A program made the position numbers and the translations under genes. Positions 21,022-33,150 of a stretch of DNA of 54,272 nt are shown here, piece after piece; the first letter of the stretch is position 1, and every line of letters begins with the position of its first letter. The stretch is from Candidatus Didemnitutus sp. (GTDB lineage Bacteria > Verrucomicrobiota > Verrucomicrobiia > Opitutales > Opitutaceae). The DNA lies in NCBI GenBank assembly GCA_030681265.1, contig JAUXXD010000001.1, positions 1 through 54,272 of the forward strand. The letters are read 5' to 3'. The notes beneath the pieces were generated by a model. The model made no database searches, was not told the origin of the DNA, and worked only from the letters and a program-made list of their open reading frames with translations.

Positions 21022-21119
21022 CTGGTCGCGCCGCCCCGGGAGGGTGCCTGTCATAACCCAAGGGCATTCTTGACCCGTCCCGCCTGCTCCGGCATCAATC
21101 AGGCAACAATTATTTCGAA

Positions 21120-21221
21120 ATGACCCAGCGCACCTCACTTCTACTGAGCCTGCCCGCCGCGATTATTATCGTGGTCGTCATTCTGCTTACCCCGACTTCA
21201 GGGCGGCATTCGCATTCTTAA
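21120..21221 (+). CDS. Branched-chain amino acid leader peptide of the ilv operon
   Basis: A 33-codon reading frame in the 325-base gap before ilvD. Its core reads LLLSLPAAIIIVVVILL: six Leu, four Ile and three Val codons among residues 7-23. This is the composition expected of an attenuation leader peptide for the ilv genes that follow, as in the enteric ilvL and ilvB leaders. The stop codon (TAA at 21219) lies downstream of a GGGCGGC segment that can pair with the terminator's left arm. No Shine-Dalgarno is visible, as with most genes here. A possible -35 TTGACC at 21070-21075 lies about 50 bases upstream, with only a weak -10. Not a chance ORF in my judgement, because codons, position and RNA structure agree. 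Confidence 0.8.
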   Translation: MTQRTSLLLSLPAAIIIVVVILLTPTSGRHSHS

Positions 21222-21282
21222 AGAGCACAACACTCCCCAAGTTTCGAAAAGGCCGCCCAGACCGGGCGGTCTTTTTGTTTTT
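21201..21282 (+). terminator. Attenuator: antiterminator segment and intrinsic terminator before ilvD
   Basis: The terminator is GGCCGCCC (21251-21258), loop AGACC, GGGCGGTC (21264-21271; one G-U pair), followed by TTTTTGTTTTT. A competing segment GGGCGGC (21201-21207) inside the leader-peptide gene is exactly complementary to GCCGCCC (21252-21258), so either structure can form but not both. Expected behaviour: a ribosome stalled at the Ile/Val/Leu codons (21162-21188) leaves 21201-21207 free to form the antiterminator. A ribosome reaching the stop at 21219 covers it, and the terminator forms. Pairings are read from sequence; regulation is inferred from known attenuators. Confidence 0.82.
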
Positions 21283-21346
21283 AAAACCATGACCTTCGCT
21301 TCTCTCCAATTGCCCCTCTCCAACTCACGGAGAAATTTCTTTTCCC

Positions 21347-23017
21347 ATGACTGATCTTCGACGCAATTCCCGTGTTATCACCGAGGGCCCGCATCGTGCG
21401 CCGGCCCGGGCAATGATGAAAGCAGTCGGTTTCACCGACGCGGATTTGGAGAAGCCGCTCATCGGCATCGCCAACACGTGGACCGAAATCGGGCCCTGCA
21501 ATTTCCATCTTCGCGAGTTGGCGGAGCATGTGAAAGCAGGCGTGCGCGCCGCCGGTGGCACGCCGTTGGAGTTCAACACGGTCTCTATTTCCGACGGTAT
21601 CACGATGGGCACCGAGGGCATGAAGACCTCGCTGATCTCGCGCGAAGTCATTTGCGACTCGATCGAACTCGTCACCCGCGGCAACGCCCTCGACGGCCTC
21701 GTCTGCCTTTCGTCGTGCGACAAAACCAACCCCGGCGTCATGATGGCGCTCGCGCGGCTCGATGTGCCCGGTCTCGCGCTCTACGGCGGTTCGATCAATC
21801 ACGGCACTCATGGCGGAAAAGCGTTGACCGTGCAGGATGTCTTTGAAGCCGTTGGCGCGTTTTCCGCCGGCAAGATCGACGCTCAAGAGTTTAAGTGCAT
21901 CGAAGATGCCGCGTGTCCCACGGCCGGTGCGTGCGGCGGTCAATTCACCGCGAACACGATGGCAACGATCATGGAAGCAATTGGCATCTCGCCGGTCGGC
22001 GCCAATGGAATTCCCGCCACCGATCCGGCGAAAGCCGAGGCGGCGTTTCGCTGCGGTGAAATAGCCGTGGAATTAGTGCGACAGGATTTGCGTCCGTCGC
22101 GCATTTTCACGCGACCAGCATTCGAAAACGCCATCACCTCGGTCGCGGCGTCGGGTGGTTCGACGAACGCGGTTTTGCATCTGCTCGCCCTCGCGCGCGA
22201 AGTCACCGTGCCACTCACGTTGGAAGACTTCGACCAAATCAGCGCGCGCACGCCGACCATCGCGACGTTGAAACCCGGCGGACTTTACACGGCGGTGGAA
22301 ATGCACGCCGCGGGCGGCATGTCGCTGCTTTTGCGCCGTCTTTTCGAAGGCGGTTTTCTCGCCGCCGATTGCGCGACCGTCACCGGGCGCACGCTCGGCG
22401 AAGAAGTGCGCGAAGCGCCCGAAACGGCGGGCCAGCAAGTCATTCGTCCGACGAGCAAACCTTTCAAGCCGCACGGTGGTTTGGTGATCTTGCGCGGTAA
22501 TCTCGCTGCGGAAGGTTGCGTGTTAAAAATTGCCGGCAGCAGCGTCGAGCGGCACCGCGGCCCGGCGCGTGTTTTTAATTGCGAAGAAGACGCGATGGCC
22601 GCCGCGAACAAGCAGGCGATCAAAGCCGGCGATGTCGTCGTGATCCGCTACGAGGGACCCAAGGGCGGTCCCGGCATGCGCGAAATGCTCGGCGTCACTG
22701 CCGCACTCGCCGGGGCGGGTTTGGCCGAGTCGGTGGCGCTGCTCACTGACGGACGATTCTCCGGGGCGACGCGTGGTTTCTCCATTGGACACGTCGCACC
22801 CGAAGCGGCAGTCGGTGGGCTGATCGCCTTCGTGAACGAAGGCGATACCATCGAAATCGATGTGGCGAAACGACTCCTGCACCTCGACGTGTCGGACGCC
22901 GTGCTCGCCGAGCGTCGCCAAGGTTGGACCAGTCCCGCTCCGCGTTATCAACGCGGCGTGATGGCCAAATATGCCGCAACCGTGTCTTCCGCTGCGACCG
23001 GTGCTTATACAACTTAA
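21347..23017 (+). CDS. ilvD: Dihydroxy-acid dehydratase
   Basis: A 556-residue iron-sulfur enzyme that dehydrates dihydroxy acids to 2-oxoisovalerate and 2-oxo-3-methylvalerate, the third common step of Val and Ile synthesis. Cluster cysteines are in LSSCDKTNPG and DAACPTAGACGGQFTANTM. The C-terminal GRFSGATRGFSIGHVAPEAA with the catalytic Ser motif is intact. First structural gene after the attenuator, with a 64-base gap from the terminator T-run. ilvB begins 30 bases downstream. Confidence 0.97.
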   Translation: MTDLRRNSRVITEGPHRAPARAMMKAVGFTDADLEKPLIGIANTWTEIGPCNFHLRELAEHVKAGVRAAGGTPLEFNTVSISDGITMGTEGMKTSLISREVICDSIELVTRGNALDGLVCLSSCDKTNPGVMMALARLDVPGLALYGGSINHGTHGGKALTVQDVFEAVGAFSAGKIDAQEFKCIEDAACPTAGACGGQFTANTMATIMEAIGISPVGANGIPATDPAKAEAAFRCGEIAVELVRQDLRPSRIFTRPAFENAITSVAASGGSTNAVLHLLALAREVTVPLTLEDFDQISARTPTIATLKPGGLYTAVEMHAAGGMSLLLRRLFEGGFLAADCATVTGRTLGEEVREAPETAGQQVIRPTSKPFKPHGGLVILRGNLAAEGCVLKIAGSSVERHRGPARVFNCEEDAMAAANKQAIKAGDVVVIRYEGPKGGPGMREMLGVTAALAGAGLAESVALLTDGRFSGATRGFSIGHVAPEAAVGGLIAFVNEGDTIEIDVAKRLLHLDVSDAVLAERRQGWTSPAPRYQRGVMAKYAATVSSAATGAYTT

Positions 23018-23047: not shown

Positions 23048-24820
23048 ATGAAACTCACCGGTGCAGAAATTATTTGGGAATGCCTCATCCGCGAAGGCGT
23101 CGATGTCGTGTTCGGCTACCCGGGCGGCGCCATTTTGCCGACCTACGACGCGATGACGAAATATCCGCAAATCCACCACGTGCTCACACGCCACGAACAG
23201 GGCGCGACGCACATGGCGGACGGTTACGCGCGGGCCAGCGGCAAAGTCGGTGTGGCCATCGCCACTTCCGGCCCCGGTGCGACCAACATGGTCACGGGCA
23301 TCGCCACCGCCATCATGGATTCGTCCCCGATCGTGTGCATCACCGGCCAGGTCGGCTCCAAGGCCCTCGGCACCGACGCGTTCCAGGAAACCGACGTCAC
23401 GGGCGTCACGTTGCCGATCACGAAACACAATTACCTCGTCACGCGCGCCGGCGACATCGCCCGCGTGTTGCGCGAAGCGTTCTACATCGCCAAGAGTGGT
23501 CGTCCGGGCCCGGTCCTCGTCGACATCACCAAGGATGCGCAACAATCCAGCGCCGAGTTTGATTGGGATGGCGTTGCGCCAAGTCTGCCGGGTTACCGTC
23601 CGAATCTCCGCGCACTGCCCTCGGAATACGAACGCGCGCTCCAATTGCTCAATTCCGCCAAGCGCCCCGTGATTCTCGCGGGCCAAGGTATTCTCAAGGC
23701 CAGCGCGACCGCGCAAGTGCTCGAGTTCGCGACGGCCGCCGGCGTTCCGATTGCCGTGACCTTGCTCGGCATCGGTGCGATTCCCGCGTCGTCACCGCTC
23801 AACCTCGGTATGATGGGCATGCACGGTGAGGCGTGGGTGAATCAGGCGATTCAACAAGCCGACTTGCTCATCGCACTCGGCATGCGTTTCGACGATCGCG
23901 TCACGGGCAATCTCAAGACTTACGCTCCGAACGCGAAAAAAATTCACGTCGAAATCGATCCATCCGAAGTGAACAAGAACGTGCACGTCGACGTCGCGTT
24001 GATCGGTGACTTGTTGGAAATCATCACCGAACTTCGCCCGCGCGTGGAGACCAATGCGCGCGCCGAATGGTGGGCCAAGATCGCCGAAATGAAAGGCGAC
24101 TCCGCCGTGCTCGACATTCAGGCGTTGCCGGACAACGGCCACCTCTACGCCGCGCATGTCATCAACGACATTTGGCGCGCCACGAAGGATCGCGAAACCA
24201 TCGTCGTCACTGACGTCGGCCAGCACCAAATGTGGGAAGCGCAATACTACCGTCACGAAGCGCCGCGTTCGCTCATCACCTCCGGCGGTCTCGGCACGAT
24301 GGGTTTTGCGCTGCCCGCGGCCATTGGCGCGAAATTCGCCTGCCCGGAAAAAGACGTTTGGGTCGTCGTGGGCGACGGCGGTTTCCAAATGACGATGCCA
24401 GAACTCGCGACGATCGCGCAGGAGAAAATCAAAATCAACGTCGCCATCATCAACAACGCCTTCCTCGGCATGGTGCGGCAATGGCAGGAATTTTTCTACG
24501 ACAAACGTTACGCCGCCACCCCGTTGCTGGGACCGGATTTCGTGAAACTGGCCGATGCCTTCGGTTTGAAAGGCGTGCGCGTCACCCAGCGCTCCGAAGT
24601 TACGCCCGCCGTGCTCGACGGCCTCGCCCACGAAGGCACGGTCGTCTTTGACTTCCGCGTCGAACAAGAAGATTCGGTCTTCCCGATGGTGCCGGCGGGC
24701 GCGGCCCTCGACAAAATGATCCGCCGACCGAAGCGCGACGTGCTTGCCGAGACGGGCTCCGACAAAGAGTGGCAAATGCCGACCGCGAAAGCGCCCGCCG
24801 CCACGACCGAAAACTCCTAA
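23048..24820 (+). CDS. ilvB: Acetolactate synthase, large (catalytic) subunit
   Basis: A 590-residue ThDP- and FAD-dependent enzyme catalysing the first common step of Val/Leu/Ile synthesis. Visible features: GYPGGAILPTYD, RHEQGATHMADGYARASG with the catalytic Glu, the central FAD-binding domain with GMHGEAWVNQAIQQADLLIALGMRFDDR, and the ThDP motif GDGGFQMTMPELAT ending in NN. Length is standard for the anabolic enzyme with a regulatory partner, which follows 12 bases downstream. Confidence 0.96.
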   Translation: MKLTGAEIIWECLIREGVDVVFGYPGGAILPTYDAMTKYPQIHHVLTRHEQGATHMADGYARASGKVGVAIATSGPGATNMVTGIATAIMDSSPIVCITGQVGSKALGTDAFQETDVTGVTLPITKHNYLVTRAGDIARVLREAFYIAKSGRPGPVLVDITKDAQQSSAEFDWDGVAPSLPGYRPNLRALPSEYERALQLLNSAKRPVILAGQGILKASATAQVLEFATAAGVPIAVTLLGIGAIPASSPLNLGMMGMHGEAWVNQAIQQADLLIALGMRFDDRVTGNLKTYAPNAKKIHVEIDPSEVNKNVHVDVALIGDLLEIITELRPRVETNARAEWWAKIAEMKGDSAVLDIQALPDNGHLYAAHVINDIWRATKDRETIVVTDVGQHQMWEAQYYRHEAPRSLITSGGLGTMGFALPAAIGAKFACPEKDVWVVVGDGGFQMTMPELATIAQEKIKINVAIINNAFLGMVRQWQEFFYDKRYAATPLLGPDFVKLADAFGLKGVRVTQRSEVTPAVLDGLAHEGTVVFDFRVEQEDSVFPMVPAGAALDKMIRRPKRDVLAETGSDKEWQMPTAKAPAATTENS

Positions 24821-24832
24821 TTACTTCCCGCC

Positions 24833-25408
24833 ATGGCTAAACATACTCTCATCGCTTACGTCGAAGACGTGCCCGGCGTCTTGAATCGCGTCGCGTCGCT
24901 CTTTCGCCGCCGCAACTTTAACATCGATTCCCTCACCGTCGGCCGCACGGAAAAAGCCGGCGTCTCCCGGCTCACCGTCGTCGTTGACGCCACCGAGGCC
25001 GGTGCGCGCATCGTCGAGGCAAACCTCTACAAACTCGTCAACGTGCTCCGCGTCGACGACCTCAGCCACAAGGCTTCGCTGCACCGCGAACTCGCATTGG
25101 TGAAGGTTGGGGTGACGCCGGAATCCCGCTCTCAAGTGCTGCAACTCGTCGATGTCTTCCGCGCCCGCATCGTCGATGTGGACGAGGAATCACTCGTCAT
25201 TGAAGTTACCGGCACGCCGGAGAAAATTAGCAAATTTGAAATCATGATCCGTCACTACGGCATCCTTGAAATGGTGCGCGCGGGCACGGTTTCGATGGCG
25301 CGCGGGCACGACAAACTCACCGCCAACCCGCCGCTCGTGCGCGCGGAAGTTCCCGATGCCAGCGCGCCCCACGATCCCGCTGACGCCGGTATCTCCATGT
25401 CAGTTTAA
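24833..25408 (+). CDS. ilvN: Acetolactate synthase, small (regulatory) subunit
   Basis: A 191-residue regulatory partner of IlvB. The N-terminal ACT domain (TLIAYVEDVPGVLNRVASLF, then RRNFNIDSLTVG) is the valine-sensing site in this family. The C-terminal domain, including FEIMIRHYGILEMVRAGTVSMARG, matches the ilvH/ilvN second domain. It activates the large subunit and confers feedback inhibition. About 20 residues longer at the C-terminus than short forms. The start context is cccgccATGg. Confidence 0.94.
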   Translation: MAKHTLIAYVEDVPGVLNRVASLFRRRNFNIDSLTVGRTEKAGVSRLTVVVDATEAGARIVEANLYKLVNVLRVDDLSHKASLHRELALVKVGVTPESRSQVLQLVDVFRARIVDVDEESLVIEVTGTPEKISKFEIMIRHYGILEMVRAGTVSMARGHDKLTANPPLVRAEVPDASAPHDPADAGISMSV

Positions 25409-25439: not shown

Positions 25440-26456
25440 ATGGCTAAAGTCTACTACGATAAAAACGCGGATCTCGAACTGATCCGTTCCCGCAAAGTCG
25501 CCATTGTGGGCTACGGCTCGCAAGGCCACGCCCACGCGCTCAACCTGCGCGACAGCGGCGTCGACGTTCGCGTCGGCCTCGCCAAGACGAGCAAGTCGCG
25601 CGCGAAAGCGAAGAAAGCCGGCCTCAAGGTTGATACGGTTGAAGGCGTCGCCAAGTGGGCCGACCTCATCATGCTGCTCGTGCCGGATCACACGCAGGCG
25701 CAGGTTTACCGCGACTCGATTGCGCCGCACCTCACGCCGGGGAAGGCGCTGTTTTTCGCGCACGGTTTCAACATCCGCTTCGGTGCCATCCAACCGCCGC
25801 CGGGCGTCGATGTCGCGATGGTTGCGCCGAAAAGCCCCGGTCACCGCGTGCGCGAAGTGTTTCAGGAGGGCGGCGGCGTCCCCGGCCTTTTCGCGGTGCA
25901 TCAAGACGCAACAAAGAAGGCGAAGAAACTCGCGCTCGCCTATGCGCGCGGCGTCGGTTGCACCCGCGCGGGTGTGTTGGAAACGACCTTTACCGAAGAA
26001 ACTGAAACGGATTTGTTCGGCGAACAAGCCGTGTTGTGCGGCGGCTGTGCAGAACTCGTCAAAGCGGGCTTCAAGACGCTCGTTGATGCCGGTTACCAGC
26101 CCGAGATCGCCTACTTCGAGTGCATGCACGAGTTAAAGCTGATCGTCGATCTGATGTATCGCGGCGGCCTCAACTACATGCGCTACTCCGTGTCCGACAC
26201 GGCGGAGTGGGGCGACTACGTTTCCGGTCCGCGCGTCGTCACCAAGCAGACGCAGCAGGAAATGAAGCGCATCCTCGCCGACATTCAGTCGGGCAAGTTC
26301 GCCAAGCGCTTCATGGCCGAGAATAACCAATACGGTCGCAAGACCATGAACAAGTTCCGCCAGACCGAGCGCAAACAAAAGATCGAAGTCGTCGGCGCGA
26401 AGCTGCGCAAGATGATGCCGTTTCTCAATCCCGTTACGATTAAGCCAGGCGATTAA
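25440..26456 (+). CDS. ilvC: Ketol-acid reductoisomerase (class I)
   Basis: A 338-residue enzyme for the second common step of Val/Ile synthesis (isomerisation and NADPH reduction of acetolactate). The Rossmann motif is [17 protein letters not shown], with SKSRAKAKK following, where class I enzymes bind the NADPH phosphate. Knotted C-terminal domain motifs: [32 protein letters not shown] and [12 protein letters not shown] with the metal-binding acids. Length is class I (about 330). A GC-rich hairpin lies 28 bases after the stop. Confidence 0.97.
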
Positions 26457-26783: not shown

Positions 26784-28391
26784 ATGGACTCGAATTACGT
26801 TCGCATTTTCGACACCAGCCTCCGCGATGGGGAGCAAGCCCCCGGCGCTTCGATGACTTCGGCTGAAAAGCTTGAAGTCGCGCGCACACTGGCACGACTA
26901 GGAGTGGACGTAATCGAAGCGGGCTTCCCCGCGGCCTCGCCCGACGACTTGCTCGCAGTGCAAACCATTGCGACCGAAGTCGGCAAAACCGTCCTGGAAG
27001 GGAGTCCGCAAACCGAGCCGCCGATCATCTGCGGTCTCGCGCGCTGCACTCGGGGCGACATCCAGACCGCGTGGGAAGGAGTCAAAGGGGCCAAGCGCCC
27101 GCGCATCCACACGTTTCTCGCGACGAGCGATATTCATTTGCAGCACAAGCTGCGCATGAGTCGCGCCGAAGTCGTTGCGCGCGCCACCGAAATGGTCGGT
27201 TTCGCGCGTTCCTTGTGCGCTGATGTGGAATTTTCCCCGGAAGACGCTGGTCGCAGCGATCCTGAGTTTCTCTACGAAGTGTTGGGCGCAGTGATCAAAG
27301 CTGGAGCGACCACGCTCAATATTCCCGACACCGTCGGCTACACTTTACCCGACGAATTTGGCGGACTCATCGCGGGCATCATTGCCAACACGCCCGGCGC
27401 GAAGGACGTGATCATCTCCGTCCATTGCCACGACGATCTTGGCATGGCCGTGGCCAACAGCCTCGCCGGTCTTCGCGCCGGTGCCCGCCAGGCGGAAGTC
27501 ACCGTCAACGGTATCGGTGAACGCGCGGGCAACGCTTCGCTCGAAGAACTCGTGATGGCGCTGCGCACGCGCGGCGAAAAGCTCGGCCTCCGCACCGGTA
27601 TCGATGCGCGGCAACTTTGTCGCGCATCGAAATTGGTTTCGCGCAGCACCGGCTATCCCGTGCCGCCGAACAAAGCCATCGTCGGCGCCAATGCGTTCGC
27701 GCACGAATCCGGCATTCACCAAGACGGCATGATAAAGAATGCGCAGACCTACGAGATCATGCGCCCTGAAGATGTCGGTGCGGTGCAAACGACGCTCGTG
27801 CTTGGCAAACATTCCGGACGCAACGCCGTGTCGAAGCGTCTCGCCGAACTCGGCTACCCACTCGAAGGCGAAGCGCTCAATCGCGCCTTTGCAGAATTTA
27901 AAAAACTGGCTGACCGTAAGAAAGCGGTGCTCGATGCCGACCTCATCGCGCTCTCCAGTGACGAACGGACTCCCGTGCCCGAGTTGTGGGTGCTGGAGGA
28001 TTTGCAGGTCGCTTGTGGCACGACGGGGTTGCCCACCGCAACGGTGCGCCTGCGTGGTCCCGACGGCACCAAGTTTGTGCATGCGGCCGTCGGCACGGGT
28101 CCGGTCGATGCGACTTACAAGGCGATCGATGCTCTCGTCAAAGTTCCGGTCTCGCTGCTCGAGTTCGTCGTCAATGCCGTTACCGAAGGCATCGATGCGC
28201 TCGGTGAAGTCTCGGTGCGCGTGCGCCACGACGACCAGCGCTCATGCCACGGTCACGGCGCCGACACCGACATCATTGTTGCCAGCGCCAAGGCTTACTT
28301 GGCCGCCGTAAATCTTGTGCTCTCCCGCCAATCTTCGGCGCATGTGCACGCGCAGAAATCTTCCGTCGAATCCCCTTCTCCTGCCAAATGA
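26784..28391 (+). CDS. leuA: 2-isopropylmalate synthase
   Basis: A 535-residue enzyme condensing acetyl-CoA with 2-oxoisovalerate, the first committed step to leucine. The DRE-TIM barrel begins [33 protein letters not shown] and the [14 protein letters not shown] segment are typical of LeuA, and [10 protein letters not shown] is the subdomain helix conserved in IPMS. The C-terminal about 130 residues are the leucine-binding LeuA dimer domain, so feedback inhibition is likely. It overlaps leuC by four bases. Confidence 0.96.
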
Positions 28392-29836
28392 GTAAGTTTC
28401 CCCGCACTCTCTTTCAAAAAATCTGGGACGCGCACGTCGTCGCCGAACAGCCCGGCGCCCCCGCGATTCTCTACATCGACCTGCACCTCGTGCACGAAGT
28501 GACGTCGCCGCAGGCGTTCTCCGTTTTGCGCGAGCGCGGCCTGAAAGTGCGTTGCCCCGAACGCACGGTGGCGACGATGGATCACTCGATTCCGACGCGC
28601 GGCGGTTATGAAGCCGCCGACGAAATGGGTCGCTTGCAACTGCGCCTTTTGGAATCCAACGCCAAGGAACACGGCGTGCGCCTCTACGGATTGAATTCCG
28701 TCGAGCGTGGCATCGTGCACGTCATTGGGCCAGAGCAGGGCTACACGCAGCCGGGCATGACGATTGTGTGCGGCGACAGCCATACCTCGACGCACGGCGC
28801 GTTTGGCGCGCTCGGTTTCGGCATCGGCACCAGCGAAGTCGGCCACGTGTTGGCAACGCAGTGTTTGTTGCAACGCAAAGCCCGCACCTGCGAGGTGCGC
28901 GTCGATGGTGGCCTTCAGCCCGGTGTGACCGCGAAGGACATCATTCTCGCGCTGCTCGCGAAGATCGGCGTCGGCGGTGGCACGGGCCACGTTTTTGAAT
29001 ACACCGGCGAAGCGATTCGCGCGCTTGATATGGAAGGCCGCATGACGATCTGCAATATGTCGATCGAAGGTGGCGCGCGCGCCGGCATGATCGCGCCGGA
29101 CGAAAAGACTTTCGCGTTTGTTGCCGGTCGTGACTTCGCGCCCAAAGGCGCGGCGTGGGACAAAGCACTCGCGTATTGGCGCACGTTGCCGACCGACGAG
29201 GGAGCGACCTACGACCGCACCGTCACACTCGATGCAGCGACGTTGGAGCCGATGGTGACTTTTGGCACGAATCCCGGCCAAGGCGTCTCGATCAACGCGC
29301 CGCTCCCATTGCCGTCGAGCCTCAGCGATCCGGCCGAGCGCGCCGGATTGGAAAAATCACTCGCCTACATGAAACTCGAGGGCGGCAAACCGTTGCTCGG
29401 GCAGAAAGTCGATGTCGTGTTTCTCGGTTCGTGCACGAATTCCCGTCTCGTCGATTTGCGCGCCGCCGCCGAGATGTTGCGCGGTCGCAAAGTCGCCCAA
29501 GGCGTGCGCATGATGGTGGTGCCCGGCTCTCAATCCGTGAAAAACGCCGCCGAAGCCGAAGGTCTCGATAAAGTGTTCAAGGAAGCCGGAGCCGACTGGC
29601 GCGAAGCCGGTTGCTCGATGTGCATCGCGATGAACGGCGACCAACTCGCCCCCGGCGAACTCGCCGTTTCGACGTCGAACCGCAATTTTGAAGGCCGCCA
29701 AGGCAAGGGCGGTCGCACGGTGCTCGCTTCGCCGCTCACCGCCGCCGCGGCCGCGATCACGGGCTGCGTGACGGATCCCCGCACCATCGGCCCGAACACA
29801 CCTGTCGTGCTTGGGGAAAAGGAGGTGGCCTCATGA
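28388..29836 (+). CDS. leuC: 3-isopropylmalate dehydratase, large subunit
   Basis: A 482-residue aconitase-family subunit that interconverts 2- and 3-isopropylmalate and also acts on citramalate. Cluster ligands are in GSCTNSR and [29 protein letters not shown] and PGSQSVK are also present. The start at 28388 overlaps the leuA stop (ATGA); the frame is open further upstream inside leuA, but that part has no family similarity. Works with LeuD, encoded next. Confidence 0.95.
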
Positions 29837-30432
29837 GCGCCCCGCAATTTACCGCGCTGACCGCCCGCGCCGTGCTGTTGCCGATTACAGACGTCGACAC
29901 GGATCAAATCATCCCGGCTCGTTTTCTTAAAGTCACCGACAAGCAAGGGCTGGGCAAAAACCTGTTCTGCGATTGGCGTTACAACGATGACGGCTCACCG
30001 AAGCCGGACTTCGTGCTCAATCGCCCCGAGTCGCAAGGCGCGGAAATTCTCGTGGCCGGACACAACTTCGGATGCGGTTCGTCGCGCGAACACGCGCCGT
30101 GGGCACTCGTTGGTTGGGGACTGCGCGCCGTGGTTTCCACGATGTTCGCCGATATTTTCCGCAACAACTCGCTCAAAAACGGCTTCGTGCCGGTGACGGT
30201 TGAACCAGCGGTGCATGCCGCGTTGCTCGCCGCCCTGGCGAAGGAGCCGAACATGCCCGTGACGGTTGATCTCGGCGGTGCAGAAGCGAGCGTAAGTTGG
30301 CCGGGCCAATCGCCGGTCGCGTTCCCCATCGATCCGTTCGCGCGCGATTGTCTGCGCCGCGGCGTCGATGAACTCGGTTATCTCCAGGCGCACGAAGCGC
30401 AGGTCAAAGCCTATGAAGCCGCCCGCGCCTGA
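29833..30432 (+). CDS. leuD: 3-isopropylmalate dehydratase, small subunit
   Basis: A 199-residue swivel-domain partner of LeuC. Signature segments: [32 protein letters not shown] with substrate-binding residues, and GFVPV. It starts in a four-base overlap with leuC and has a strong Shine-Dalgarno (AAGGAGGT) six bases before the start, one of the best in the window. It overlaps the 5' end of cimA by 20 bases. Confidence 0.95.
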
Positions 30433-32047
30433 TCGCAATCTGCCCGCCGAAGTCGAGGTTTTCGACACGACGTTGCGTGACGGCACGCAGCGCGAAGGTA
30501 TTTCCTACTCGCTCGAAGATAAACTGCGCATCGCGCAGAAACTCGATCTGCTCGGCGTGATGTTCATCGAGGGCGGTTGGCCGGGTTCGAATCCGAAGGA
30601 CGCCGAATTTTTTGCGCAAGTGCGCGAGCTGAAGCTAAACACCGCGAAGATCGTCGCGTTCGGCGCGACGCGTCGCGCCAAGCTGGCGCCGGCGGATGAT
30701 CCGAGTGTGCGCGCGCTGGTCGATGCCGGCACGGAAGTCTGCGCGATCTTCGGCAAATCTTCGCCGTTGCAAGTGAAGGAAGTCCTGCGTTCCACGCTCG
30801 AAGAGAACCTCGCGATGATCGAAGAGACCGTCGCTTACCTGCGTTCGCAGGGGAAGCGCGTGATCTACGATGCGGAGCATTTCTTCGACGGCTTTGACGC
30901 TGATCGTTTTTACGCGCTCGAAACGTTGCGCGCCGCGATGCGCGGTGGGGCGGAGACCCTCGTGCTCTGCGACACCAACGGCGGCCACTTGCCGTGGCAG
31001 GTGGAGGAAGCGGTGCGCGTGGTCAGTTGTCACTTTGGCGCGACGGTGCGCATCGGCATTCATGCGCACGACGACACGGGTTGCGGCGTAGCCAACACGG
31101 TCGCCGCGGTGCGCGGTGGCGCGGCGCACATTCAGGGCACGATCAACGGTTACGGCGAACGCTGCGGCAACGCCAACCTGTGCATCGCGATTCCGGCGCT
31201 CGAATTGAAGTTGGGCGTGCGCGCGTTGCCGAAGGGGAAGCTGCCGCACTTGCGCGACGTGGCGCGCTTCGTCGCCGAAGTCGCGAATCTCGCGCCGGAC
31301 GACCACATGGCCTACGTGGGCAACAGCGCGTTCGCGCACAAGGCCGGCGTGCACGTCGCCGCGCAGCAACGCGCTCCCGAAGCCTACCAACACATCGACC
31401 CGACGCTTGTTGGTAACGCCAGTCGCGTGGTGGTGAGTGAACTGTCGGGCCGCGCCAATGTGTTGGCGAAAGCCGAAGAATTTGGTTTCGCTGGTCTCGA
31501 TGCGCAGGCGGGCATTCGCGTCGTCGAGGAAATCAAATTGCTCGAACATGCCGGATTTTCCTTTGAAGCCGCCGAAGCAAGTGTCGCGTTGATGGTGCGT
31601 CGCCAAGCCGCCGATTACGTCGCGCCGTTCAGCCTGGTCGATTACCGCGTGATGGTCGGTCGGCACGCCGACAAACGTTTCGCCGAGGCGACGATCAAGT
31701 TGCAAAGCGGCAAGGACGAGTTGCACACCGCCGCGAGTGGCGATGGTCCGGTGCACGCGTTTGACCGCGCGTTGCGCAAGGCGCTGGAGCCGATTTTTCC
31801 GCGTGTGCATGAGATGCATCTTGCCGATTACAAGGTCCGGATTCTCAACGGCAGCGCCGGCACGGGCGCGATTACGCGCGTGTTGATCGACTGGCATTAC
31901 ACCGGCGAAGGCACGACGACCGCCCCGCGCTGGAGCACGGTCGGTGCGGGCACAAACATTCTTGAAGCGACCTGGTTGGCGTTGGCCGACGGCTATGAAT
32001 TCGGCCTCACCACCGCTCCTGCTACTCCCAAGGAAATTTCTGCATGA
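30413..32047 (+). CDS. cimA: (R)-citramalate synthase
   Basis: A 544-residue DRE-TIM enzyme condensing pyruvate with acetyl-CoA to citramalate, which LeuCD and LeuB then convert to 2-oxobutyrate for isoleucine. [21 protein letters not shown] and [13 protein letters not shown] distinguish the CimA branch from Leu[18 protein letters not shown] and [12 protein letters not shown] follow. The C-terminal regulatory domain is present. The ATG at 30413 was chosen as the first in frame close to the conserved region, giving a 20-base overlap with leuD. It sits between leuD and leuB, whose products it needs. No threonine dehydratase gene (ilvA) is in the window. Confidence 0.92.
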
Positions 32048-33150
32048 ATGCTATTATTGCCCTGACGCCCGGTGACGGCATCGGTCCGGAAGTCGTGGCG
32101 GAAGCCCGGCGCACGCTCGAAGCGGTCGGCGAACGCTTCCACCATCAATTCAAATTCACCGAGCATCTGCTCGGCGGTTGCGCGATCGATGCGCATGGCA
32201 CCGCACTGCCCGCCGGCACACTCGCGGGTTGCCGCGCCGCGGATGCCATTTTGCTCGGCGCTGTCGGGGGCCCGAAGTGGGACGACCCGCAGGCGAAAGT
32301 GCGTCCCGAGCAAGGACTGCTCGCGATTCGCAAGGAGCTCGGTCTCTACGCGAACTTGCGCCCGGTGTGTCCGCATCCGGCCTTGGCCAAATTATCCCCA
32401 CTCAAACCCGAACGCGTGGCCGGCGTCGATATCATGGTGATTCGCGAACTTACCGGCGGCCTCTACTTCGGCACGCCGAAAGGCCGCGAGCAAACGCCGG
32501 AAGGCGAGCGCGCCGTCGATACACTGGTTTACACGGAAGTTGAAATTCGACGGATCGTGCGTCTCGCATTTCAAGTCGCGATGAAGCGCCGCAAGTTGGT
32601 CACGTCGGTGGACAAAGCCAACGTGCTCGAATCGTCCCGTCTTTGGCGCAAGGTCGCCAGCGAAGTCGGCAAGGAATTTCCCGAAGTGAAACTCGAGCAC
32701 CAGCTCGTTGATTCCTGCGCGATGCGTTTGATCACACACGCGGCGCAATTCGACGTAATCGTGACGGAAAATATGTTCGGCGACATCTTGACCGACGAAG
32801 CCGCGGTGCTCGCGGGCTCGCTCGGTCTGTTGCCGAGCGCGTCACTCGGTGAAGGCAAACGCGGCCTCTACGAACCGATCCACGGTTCCGCGCCCGACAT
32901 CGCAGGCAAGGGCATCGCGAATCCGACGGGCACAATCTTGTCCGTGGCGATGTTGCTCCGGCACTCGTTGGGCTTGGAGAAGGAAGCACGTTCCATCGAA
33001 GTGGCGGTGGCTTGTGCGCTCGACGACGGCGAGTTCACGGCCGATCTCGGCGCCGTGCGTCCGCTCACGACGGAGCAAATGGGCGCGGCGATTCGCGAGC
33101 GGCTCGATATCTCGGAAAATCCGCGCACTGCTTCGCGCAGTTTGGATTAA
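32044..33150 (+). CDS. leuB: 3-isopropylmalate dehydrogenase
   Basis: A 368-residue NAD+-dependent oxidative decarboxylase, third step of leucine synthesis and, with citramalate intermediates, of the CimA route. Motifs: LTPGDGIGPEVVAEA, LLGAVGGPKWDD, RELTGGLYFG, the metal-site MFGDILTDEAAVLAGSLGLL and NAD-binding PIHGSAPDIAGKGIANP. It overlaps cimA by four bases with AAGGA ten bases upstream. Last gene of the cluster; a strong terminator follows. Confidence 0.96.
   Translation: MNAIIALTPGDGIGPEVVAEARRTLEAVGERFHHQFKFTEHLLGGCAIDAHGTALPAGTLAGCRAADAILLGAVGGPKWDDPQAKVRPEQGLLAIRKELGLYANLRPVCPHPALAKLSPLKPERVAGVDIMVIRELTGGLYFGTPKGREQTPEGERAVDTLVYTEVEIRRIVRLAFQVAMKRRKLVTSVDKANVLESSRLWRKVASEVGKEFPEVKLEHQLVDSCAMRLITHAAQFDVIVTENMFGDILTDEAAVLAGSLGLLPSASLGEGKRGLYEPIHGSAPDIAGKGIANPTGTILSVAMLLRHSLGLEKEARSIEVAVACALDDGEFTADLGAVRPLTTEQMGAAIRERLDISENPRTASRSLD

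Follow-up and report, generated by a model that had tools for sequence, protein, structure and literature searches.

The ilvGMEDA and ilvBN attenuators of Escherichia coli and Salmonella combine a leader run of Ile/Val/Leu codons with competing antiterminator and terminator hairpins, and genes for branched-chain amino acids (BCAA) lie downstream. In the classical scheme, as given in the part of PMC1183508 that names these two attenuators, a stalled ribosome leaves region 2 of the leader transcript free, and a ribosome that completes the peptide covers it. According to excerpts of PMC1262725 and PMC10272879, actinobacterial ilvB leaders and the Corynebacterium ilvB-II motif comprise a short Ile/Leu/Val (I/L/V) ORF and a terminator, ilvB-II also having a competing antiterminator, and a later example, a leucine-rich attenuator peptide of Staphylococcus aureus, is named in the title of PMC5794164. 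The Veillonella ilvD motif WRC-18-2 is an RNA element before ilvD, in some cases with terminators (excerpt of PMC8632094). For other pathways, His_leader (RF00514) and Phe_leader (RF01859) are devices of the same kind as those found here before hisG and the DAHP synthase gene, and in PMC8632094 the Acholeplasma element uORFC-13-1 upstream of aroF, a DAHP synthase gene, is described as a leader that carries one or more Phe codons and a terminator.

Here, we analyzed a window of 54,272 nucleotides (the whole stretch of DNA studied) from Candidatus Didemnitutus sp. of the Verrucomicrobiota; it corresponds to contig C74 in a draft genome of 3.56 Mb. Judged by its sequence, the gap before ilvD is very probably a classical ribosome-mediated transcription attenuator that senses Ile, Val, and Leu.

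A leader ORF with an Ile/Val/Leu codon run upstream of a BCAA gene cluster

The gap between the upstream gene, assigned by eye as ftsY, and ilvD comprises 325 bases and contains a short ORF, a terminator, and the motif GGGCGGC. The ORF (21120-21221, + strand) starts with ATG at 21120, stops with TAA at 21219-21221, and would encode a peptide of 33 aa, MTQRTSLLLSLPAAIIIVVVILLTPTSGRHSHS (32-34 aa in relatives). The Ile-Ile-Ile-Val-Val-Val-Ile-Leu-Leu run at codons 15-23 (21162-21188, + strand), on which the preliminary description was built, was confirmed from the sequence and the ORF list. It is the only run of at least nine I/L/V codons in the six frames of the 54-kb window, and no nine-codon run occurred in 100 dinucleotide shuffles of the window. 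As in described attenuators, a short ORF, predicted to be translated, offers codons for the amino acids that the operon produces. Substitutions of the coding type were found in leaders of the Lacunisphaera type (defined below): among 12 hand-picked ORFs of equal length (34 codons), 11 of them distinct, there were 285, 222, and 426 differences at codon positions 1, 2, and 3, respectively, and the NG86 values for the same 11 were dN 0.14 versus dS 0.34. The pattern points to a leader ORF that is coding, though not strictly conserved.

The proposed cluster reaching leuB was recovered in full, with all genes on the + strand between 21347 and 33150. It consists of ilvD (21347-23017; TIGR00110, 684 bits), ilvB (23048-24820; TIGR00118, 732 bits), ilvH for the acetolactate synthase small subunit (24833-25408; TIGR00119, 169 bits), ilvC (25440-26456; TIGR00465, 434 bits), leuA (26784-28391; TIGR00973, 694 bits), leuC (28385-29836, start picked by eye; TIGR00170, 709 bits), leuD (29833-30432; TIGR00171, 179 bits), cimA for citramalate synthase (30368-32047; TIGR00977, 668 bits), and leuB (32044-33150; TIGR00169, 493 bits). 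A terminator scan gave no + strand site in the gaps between the genes from ilvD to leuB, the scan being weak (19 sites versus 16.9 expected). It gave a further weak + strand site at 21317-21333, between the leader terminator and ilvD.

Conservation of the leader among relatives

The short ORF with an I/L/V run was expected to recur in relatives, and it did so in 11 of 11 loci of the genus with this ilvD and in 23 of 23 named loci from Verrucomicrobiota; seven loci are common to both sets, giving 27 in total. The leader core was present in 11 of 13 genus genomes, the same 11 that have this ilvD (split in G006 and G010); the two genomes without ilvD and leader are 73-74% complete. The named set comprised 80 loci, of which the 23, close relatives by their IlvD, belong to Candidatus Didemnitutus, Opitutus, Lacunisphaera, or Oleiharenicola or are labeled Opitutaceae, Opitutia, or Verrucomicrobia. 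Eighteen of the 23 leaders were detected by script, one locus (L104) is a contig of genus genome G005, and four (L107, L109, L112, and L120) were recognized by eye; all were measured. Because the script caught 18 of 23 verrucomicrobial leaders, little weight attaches to its silence elsewhere (Acidobacteria, Rokubacteria, and other loci), and at L162 and L177 the upstream sequence was too short. Two leader types were distinguished: that of the window, LIIAVVILLTPSTGRLSHT, in seven of the 23 named loci (with a shorter end in L104), and a Lacunisphaera type, VALIALITVVLALLATDPNTHGRLAKATSS, in 16. In both the genus and the named loci, codon run, region 2, stop, and terminator lie at near-constant distances from one another, and in 11 of 11 genus loci GGGCG lies exactly 36 nt from the core start. 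By eye, the gene upstream differs among relatives; the leader stays with ilvD.

A covariance model, R1, was built from the 11 genus leaders. It picked up further ilvD leaders in two other genera, g56 (G152) and g61 (G160, G166, and G169). Across the family, 226 of 252 genomes gave matches at E values up to 1, many of the listed ones spanning the terminator end alone. A class-wide scan of 384 genomes with R1 gave full-length matches outside the family, of which L205, L206, and L212 were inspected, together with the partial match L204; by eye these four are terminators after genes and were rejected, and G371, G558, and the other partial matches were left out.

Nineteen ilvD loci outside the genus had no leader within 600 nt by script (only 266 bases upstream in L022), and weak hydrophobic ORFs preceded ilvD in L019, L021, L023, and L028; no locus was obtained for 19 of the 49 genomes in which ilvD was matched. 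Likewise, no leader was found in the 450 nt upstream of ilvB at 18 loci of other genera; here, no locus was obtained for 22 of the 52 genomes that matched ilvB. The device does not occur in all relatives: it was absent from the examined loci of genera that carry other, ordinary verrucomicrobial ilv genes.

Mutually exclusive terminator and antiterminator hairpins

An intrinsic terminator lies between the ORF and the first gene (21245-21282, + strand). Its stem of 14 pairs spans 21245-21277, with GCCGCCC at 21252-21258 as the core of the 5' arm and GGGCGGT at 21264-21270 in the 3' arm, and is followed by a T run. The fold has -23.7 kcal/mol (z -4.65), and the helix is paired in 121 of 121 cells across 11 sequences. 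The preliminary description was right to place a terminator after the ORF but too narrow in its extent, which it gave as 21251-21271.

Region 2, GGGCGGC at 21201-21207 (+ strand), is located inside the ORF in Gly-Arg codons and would form the 5' arm of the antiterminator; its proposed complementarity to GCCGCCC at 21252-21258 in the 5' arm of the terminator is exact. In the predicted antiterminator hairpin (21201-21258, + strand) 21201-21207 pairs with 21252-21258, 21209-21212 with 21245-21248, 21217-21219 with 21239-21241, and 21223-21225 with 21233-21235, and the segment 21200-21259 folds with -21.8 kcal/mol (z -3.86). Since both structures use 21252-21258, terminator and antiterminator cannot coexist, and the mutual exclusivity suggested at the outset holds.

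This exclusion is evident from sequence and folding; covariation is weak because the GC arms barely vary: in each helix a single pair shows a change on both sides, a count also reached in 45 and 77 of 500 shuffles. The outer antiterminator is paired in 95.5% of 110 cells. For its inner segment, all 11 genus sequences gave a more stable fold than their dinucleotide shuffles did (z -2.11 to -4.35); being related, they are not independent tests. In G004 and G010 the inner stem GAGA/UCUC is replaced by an alternative, AAAUC/GAUUU. Compensatory changes, predicted for both stems, are thus few in the GC arms and take the form of a replaced inner antiterminator stem in two genomes. RNAalifold returned the outer helix alone because MAFFT misaligned the inner antiterminator stems. 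Lacunisphaera-type leaders have an outer antiterminator stem of 8-9 pairs, and the inner segment reaches z < -1 in just 2 of 15 distinct sequences.

A candidate region 1, CUGCCC at 21150-21155 (+ strand), can pair with 21201-21206; its fold in the window (z -1.51) is not significant. Such a 1:2 protector stem had z < -1 in 11 of 22 distinct leaders, with a mean of -0.95. Many leaders could form such a pairing between regions 1 and 2, but it is statistically weak, and these values are no more than suggestive of it.

Putative promoter region

Upstream of the ORF, TTGACC at 21070-21075 (+ strand) is the probable -35 element, and TTGAC is found in 11 of 11 genus loci. The distance from TTGAC to the ATG is 50 nt in the window, 44-51 nt in the 11 genus loci, and 39-50 nt in the 23 named loci. 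With a spacing of 17 nt, the -10 hexamer would fall on the weak CATCAA at 21093-21098 (+ strand); a promoter scan gave no consensus promoter and no consensus -10. Transcription would then start at about 21105, leaving a 5' leader of roughly 14 nt. By eye, no evident Shine-Dalgarno sequence precedes the ilv leaders or those of DAHP synthase described below.

A further box, TGTCATAA (21049-21056, + strand), lies upstream of the putative promoter. All 11 genus loci have TGTCATA 20-24 nt ahead of TTGAC, and the box is also present in 15 of 23 named loci, the other eight having been scanned over only 25-46 bases before TTGAC. The pattern TGTCATA-N10-16-TTGAC had 18 matches in the 13 genus genomes, 10 of them at the ilvD leader, compared with six in a backward control; 0.01 pairs of TGTCATA and TTGAC at a spacing of 8-20 are expected in the window.

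The terminator might merely end the ftsY unit, with the promoter of ilvD located after 21282: the gap follows directly on ftsY, and the terminator is strong. This is very unlikely, as relatives have another upstream gene and yet retain leader and terminator, and as the TTGAC box before the leader is conserved. A terminator of ftsY alone was rejected, since the leader persists while the upstream gene changes.

Proposed mechanism

Attenuation by ribosome stalling, the reading first put forward for this locus, is supported by the ORF, its codon run, the two predicted hairpins and their exclusivity, the conservation, and the gene order. A short transcript would start just upstream of 21120, with translation following immediately. 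If charged tRNA for any one of Ile, Val, and Leu is scarce, the ribosome would stall within 21162-21188 and leave region 2 (21201-21207) free to pair with 21252-21258; the resulting antiterminator would allow RNA polymerase to continue into a cluster that would be co-transcribed from ilvD to leuB. When all three are plentiful, the ribosome would reach the stop at 21219 and, given the size of a ribosome footprint, cover region 2, so that the terminator at 21245-21277 would form.

Measured from the start of region 2, the stop begins at a distance of 18 nt in the window, 12-21 nt in the seven named loci of the window's type, and 27 nt in the 16 Lacunisphaera-type loci. Because of the latter distance, it is doubtful that a ribosome at the stop covers region 2 in the Lacunisphaera type, which would need a ribosome in the loop hindering the hairpin, or the 1:2 stem.

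There is only a slight chance that the leader acts mainly by another route, Rho-dependent, translation-coupled, or through a protein or ligand that binds the RNA. According to an excerpt of PMC1262725, mutation of the ilvB and leuA leaders of Actinobacteria gave results unlike those of classical attenuators, which lends this some weight; here, however, the intrinsic terminator and the antiterminator are clear, and an Rfam scan of the window gave no match at gathering thresholds, including leader families, riboswitches, and T-box. For L001, a locus with this leader, no Rfam match was obtained at E values up to 1.

Leaders for other pathways in the same genomes

The device is not confined to ilv: these genomes additionally carry predicted leaders for the aromatic and His pathways. 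Matches of R1 were obtained before DAHP synthase genes as well, including that of the window's own genome (contig C102, L080, from 1154 onward), where the leader is rich in Phe and Tyr (MIRFSAYFFFAFAGYFAPRNMGG). In a protein search of 26 chosen genomes, five lacked a close homologue of DAHP synthase, and 11 of 21 loci, from eight genera, had a leader rich in Phe/Tyr(/Trp); no leader was found within 420 nt at the other 10. By script, a region 2 matching the terminator was present in seven of the 11 leaders (G000, G004, G010, G021, G027, G152, and G160) and absent from those of G005, G032, and G033, the last of which also had no terminator; G015 was doubtful. The ATG lies 37-38 nt after TTGACA in 15 of 15 measured DAHP leaders, which were picked by R1, and the transcripts may be nearly leaderless, with a 5' leader of 1-2 nt. 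Phe_leader RF01859 scored 28.2 bits in L080 versus a threshold of 55, a chance-level match (E 0.58).

His-rich leaders of 10-11 aa preceded hisG in 19 of 37 loci, namely 11 of 11 in the genus, seven of seven in g61, and G021; their hairpins were assessed by eye. In the window's own genome the leader reads MITHHHHLHVS (L200, 1156-1191, contig C196). No His-rich leader was found within 550 nt at 18 of the 37 loci, and 18 further genomes with hisG yielded no locus. His_leader RF00514 scored 35.8 bits in L195 versus a threshold of 49 (2208-2321, - strand, with hisG also on -). For trpE, four of 11 loci above the cut-off were viewed, and no ORF with two Trp in nine residues was found within 450 nt. 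In G015, an Ile/Val/Met-rich leader with CTCAGGG facing CCCTGAG precedes a gene that by eye resembles threonine dehydratase.

These findings bear on whether the ORF before ilvD and the terminator after it are an independent unit for a small hydrophobic (membrane) protein that lies next to ilvD incidentally. The hydrophobic core of the 33-aa peptide and its end just before a strong terminator would fit. We nevertheless consider this highly improbable, since the ORF stays with ilvD (23 of 23 named and 11 of 11 genus loci) though the upstream gene varies, region 2 and the terminator arm are complementary, and short ORFs with Phe/Tyr/Trp or His precede DAHP synthase and hisG, those with His not being hydrophobic.

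The residues of the leaders match the pathways downstream: their shares were 38% I/L/V in the 23 ilvD leaders, 29% F/Y/W in 23 DAHP-synthase leaders, and 45% H in the 19 hisG leaders, where the DAHP and hisG lists hold positives alone, picked for those residues. Outside region 2 and the terminator, ilv and aromatic leaders resembled each other with a mean z of 1.84 for the window's type (55 pairs, -0.36 to 5.83) and of 0.56 for the Lacunisphaera type (44 pairs). Because kinship is weak there, common descent of the sensor halves is unsupported; the GC platform is common to both.

Leader-like ORFs with GC terminators were also seen repeatedly before genes for a small protein, roughly 107 aa long, whose domain resembles DUF6538 (PF20172, E 9e-6, below the cut-off), at L081, L082, L083, L079 (own genome, contig C91), L090, L304, L305, and L317. 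One leader-like type, MMSRLTWLPINDTTSKHVVVILFAPIAGRLSHT, appears by eye as a chimera of a second type (..LTPWYATSKAI..) and the ilv leader. Before genes of this family in L091 (2555-2688) and L092 (2605-2738), both on the - strand (G004 and G005), there is a SAM-I/IV-riboswitch-like element with a terminator after it; the elements score 38.8 and 38.4 bits, just under the threshold of 41.1.

Possible movement of the leader with the ilv operon

In a quick tree of IlvD, the window, the 22 leader-bearing Verrucomicrobiota, and two Anaerolineales formed a group of 25 (SH-aLRT 99), separate from the IlvD of four other Opitutaceae genera. The frame-broken row L171 was omitted and L159 included; an earlier tree with L171 agreed. 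At this locus (L171/L010, G006) the ilvD frame is broken near the start, with two overlapping matches in different frames and stops in the read-through, possibly an assembly fault. The two Anaerolineales loci (L118 and L119), which have the closest IlvD outside, show the order ilvD-ilvB-ilvH, each with an I/L/V leader, and in G021 (L226) a similar leader precedes an ilvB 78% identical to that of the window. The leaders of L118, L119, and L226 end in RVTR, RVTRR, or RVTRK, and by eye they contain GGTTGGG or CAGTTGG complementary to terminator arm plus loop.

Exchange of the ilv operon between phyla would be the simplest reading of these sequences. A wider picture can be offered tentatively, at somewhat less than even confidence: several Opitutaceae genera would have leader-peptide attenuators for the BCAA, aromatic, and His pathways; those of the first two would share a GGGCGGC(U)/(A)GCCGCCC terminator/antiterminator platform, fitted with different sensor runs through duplication and recombination; and the ilv operon would have been exchanged with its leader between Verrucomicrobiota and Chloroflexota.

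Comparison with known systems

The proposed attenuator would explain how one peptide controls a BCAA cluster reaching leuB, and it would place ribosome-mediated attenuation, for several pathways at once, in a phylum for which no report of attenuators was found in the literature searched; Lopatovskaya et al. 2010 and Vitreschak et al. 2004 are the likely places for one. Comparable leaders before different operons are useful for studying the origin of attenuators, the change of sensor codons, and movement with operons, and the analysis names small genes that annotation often overlooks.

Compared with ilvGMEDA and ilvBN, a single leader here precedes ilvD and a cluster extending to leuB, in Verrucomicrobiota, and the likeness noted is one of design. 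In the actinobacterial leaders, as far as the excerpts cited above describe them, the first gene is ilvB and the sequence is another; here the first gene is ilvD, and the last part of the ORF contains region 2. WRC-18-2 differs in being a weak riboswitch candidate from Firmicutes only, with no I/L/V ORF mentioned in the excerpt of PMC8632094, and uORFC-13-1 belongs to another phylum, with no Tyr/Trp run mentioned there. Relative to Phe_leader, the aromatic leaders found here also carry Tyr and, in some genera, Trp. The kind of device is known; the lineage is, as far as checked, a new one for it, and several pathways use it.
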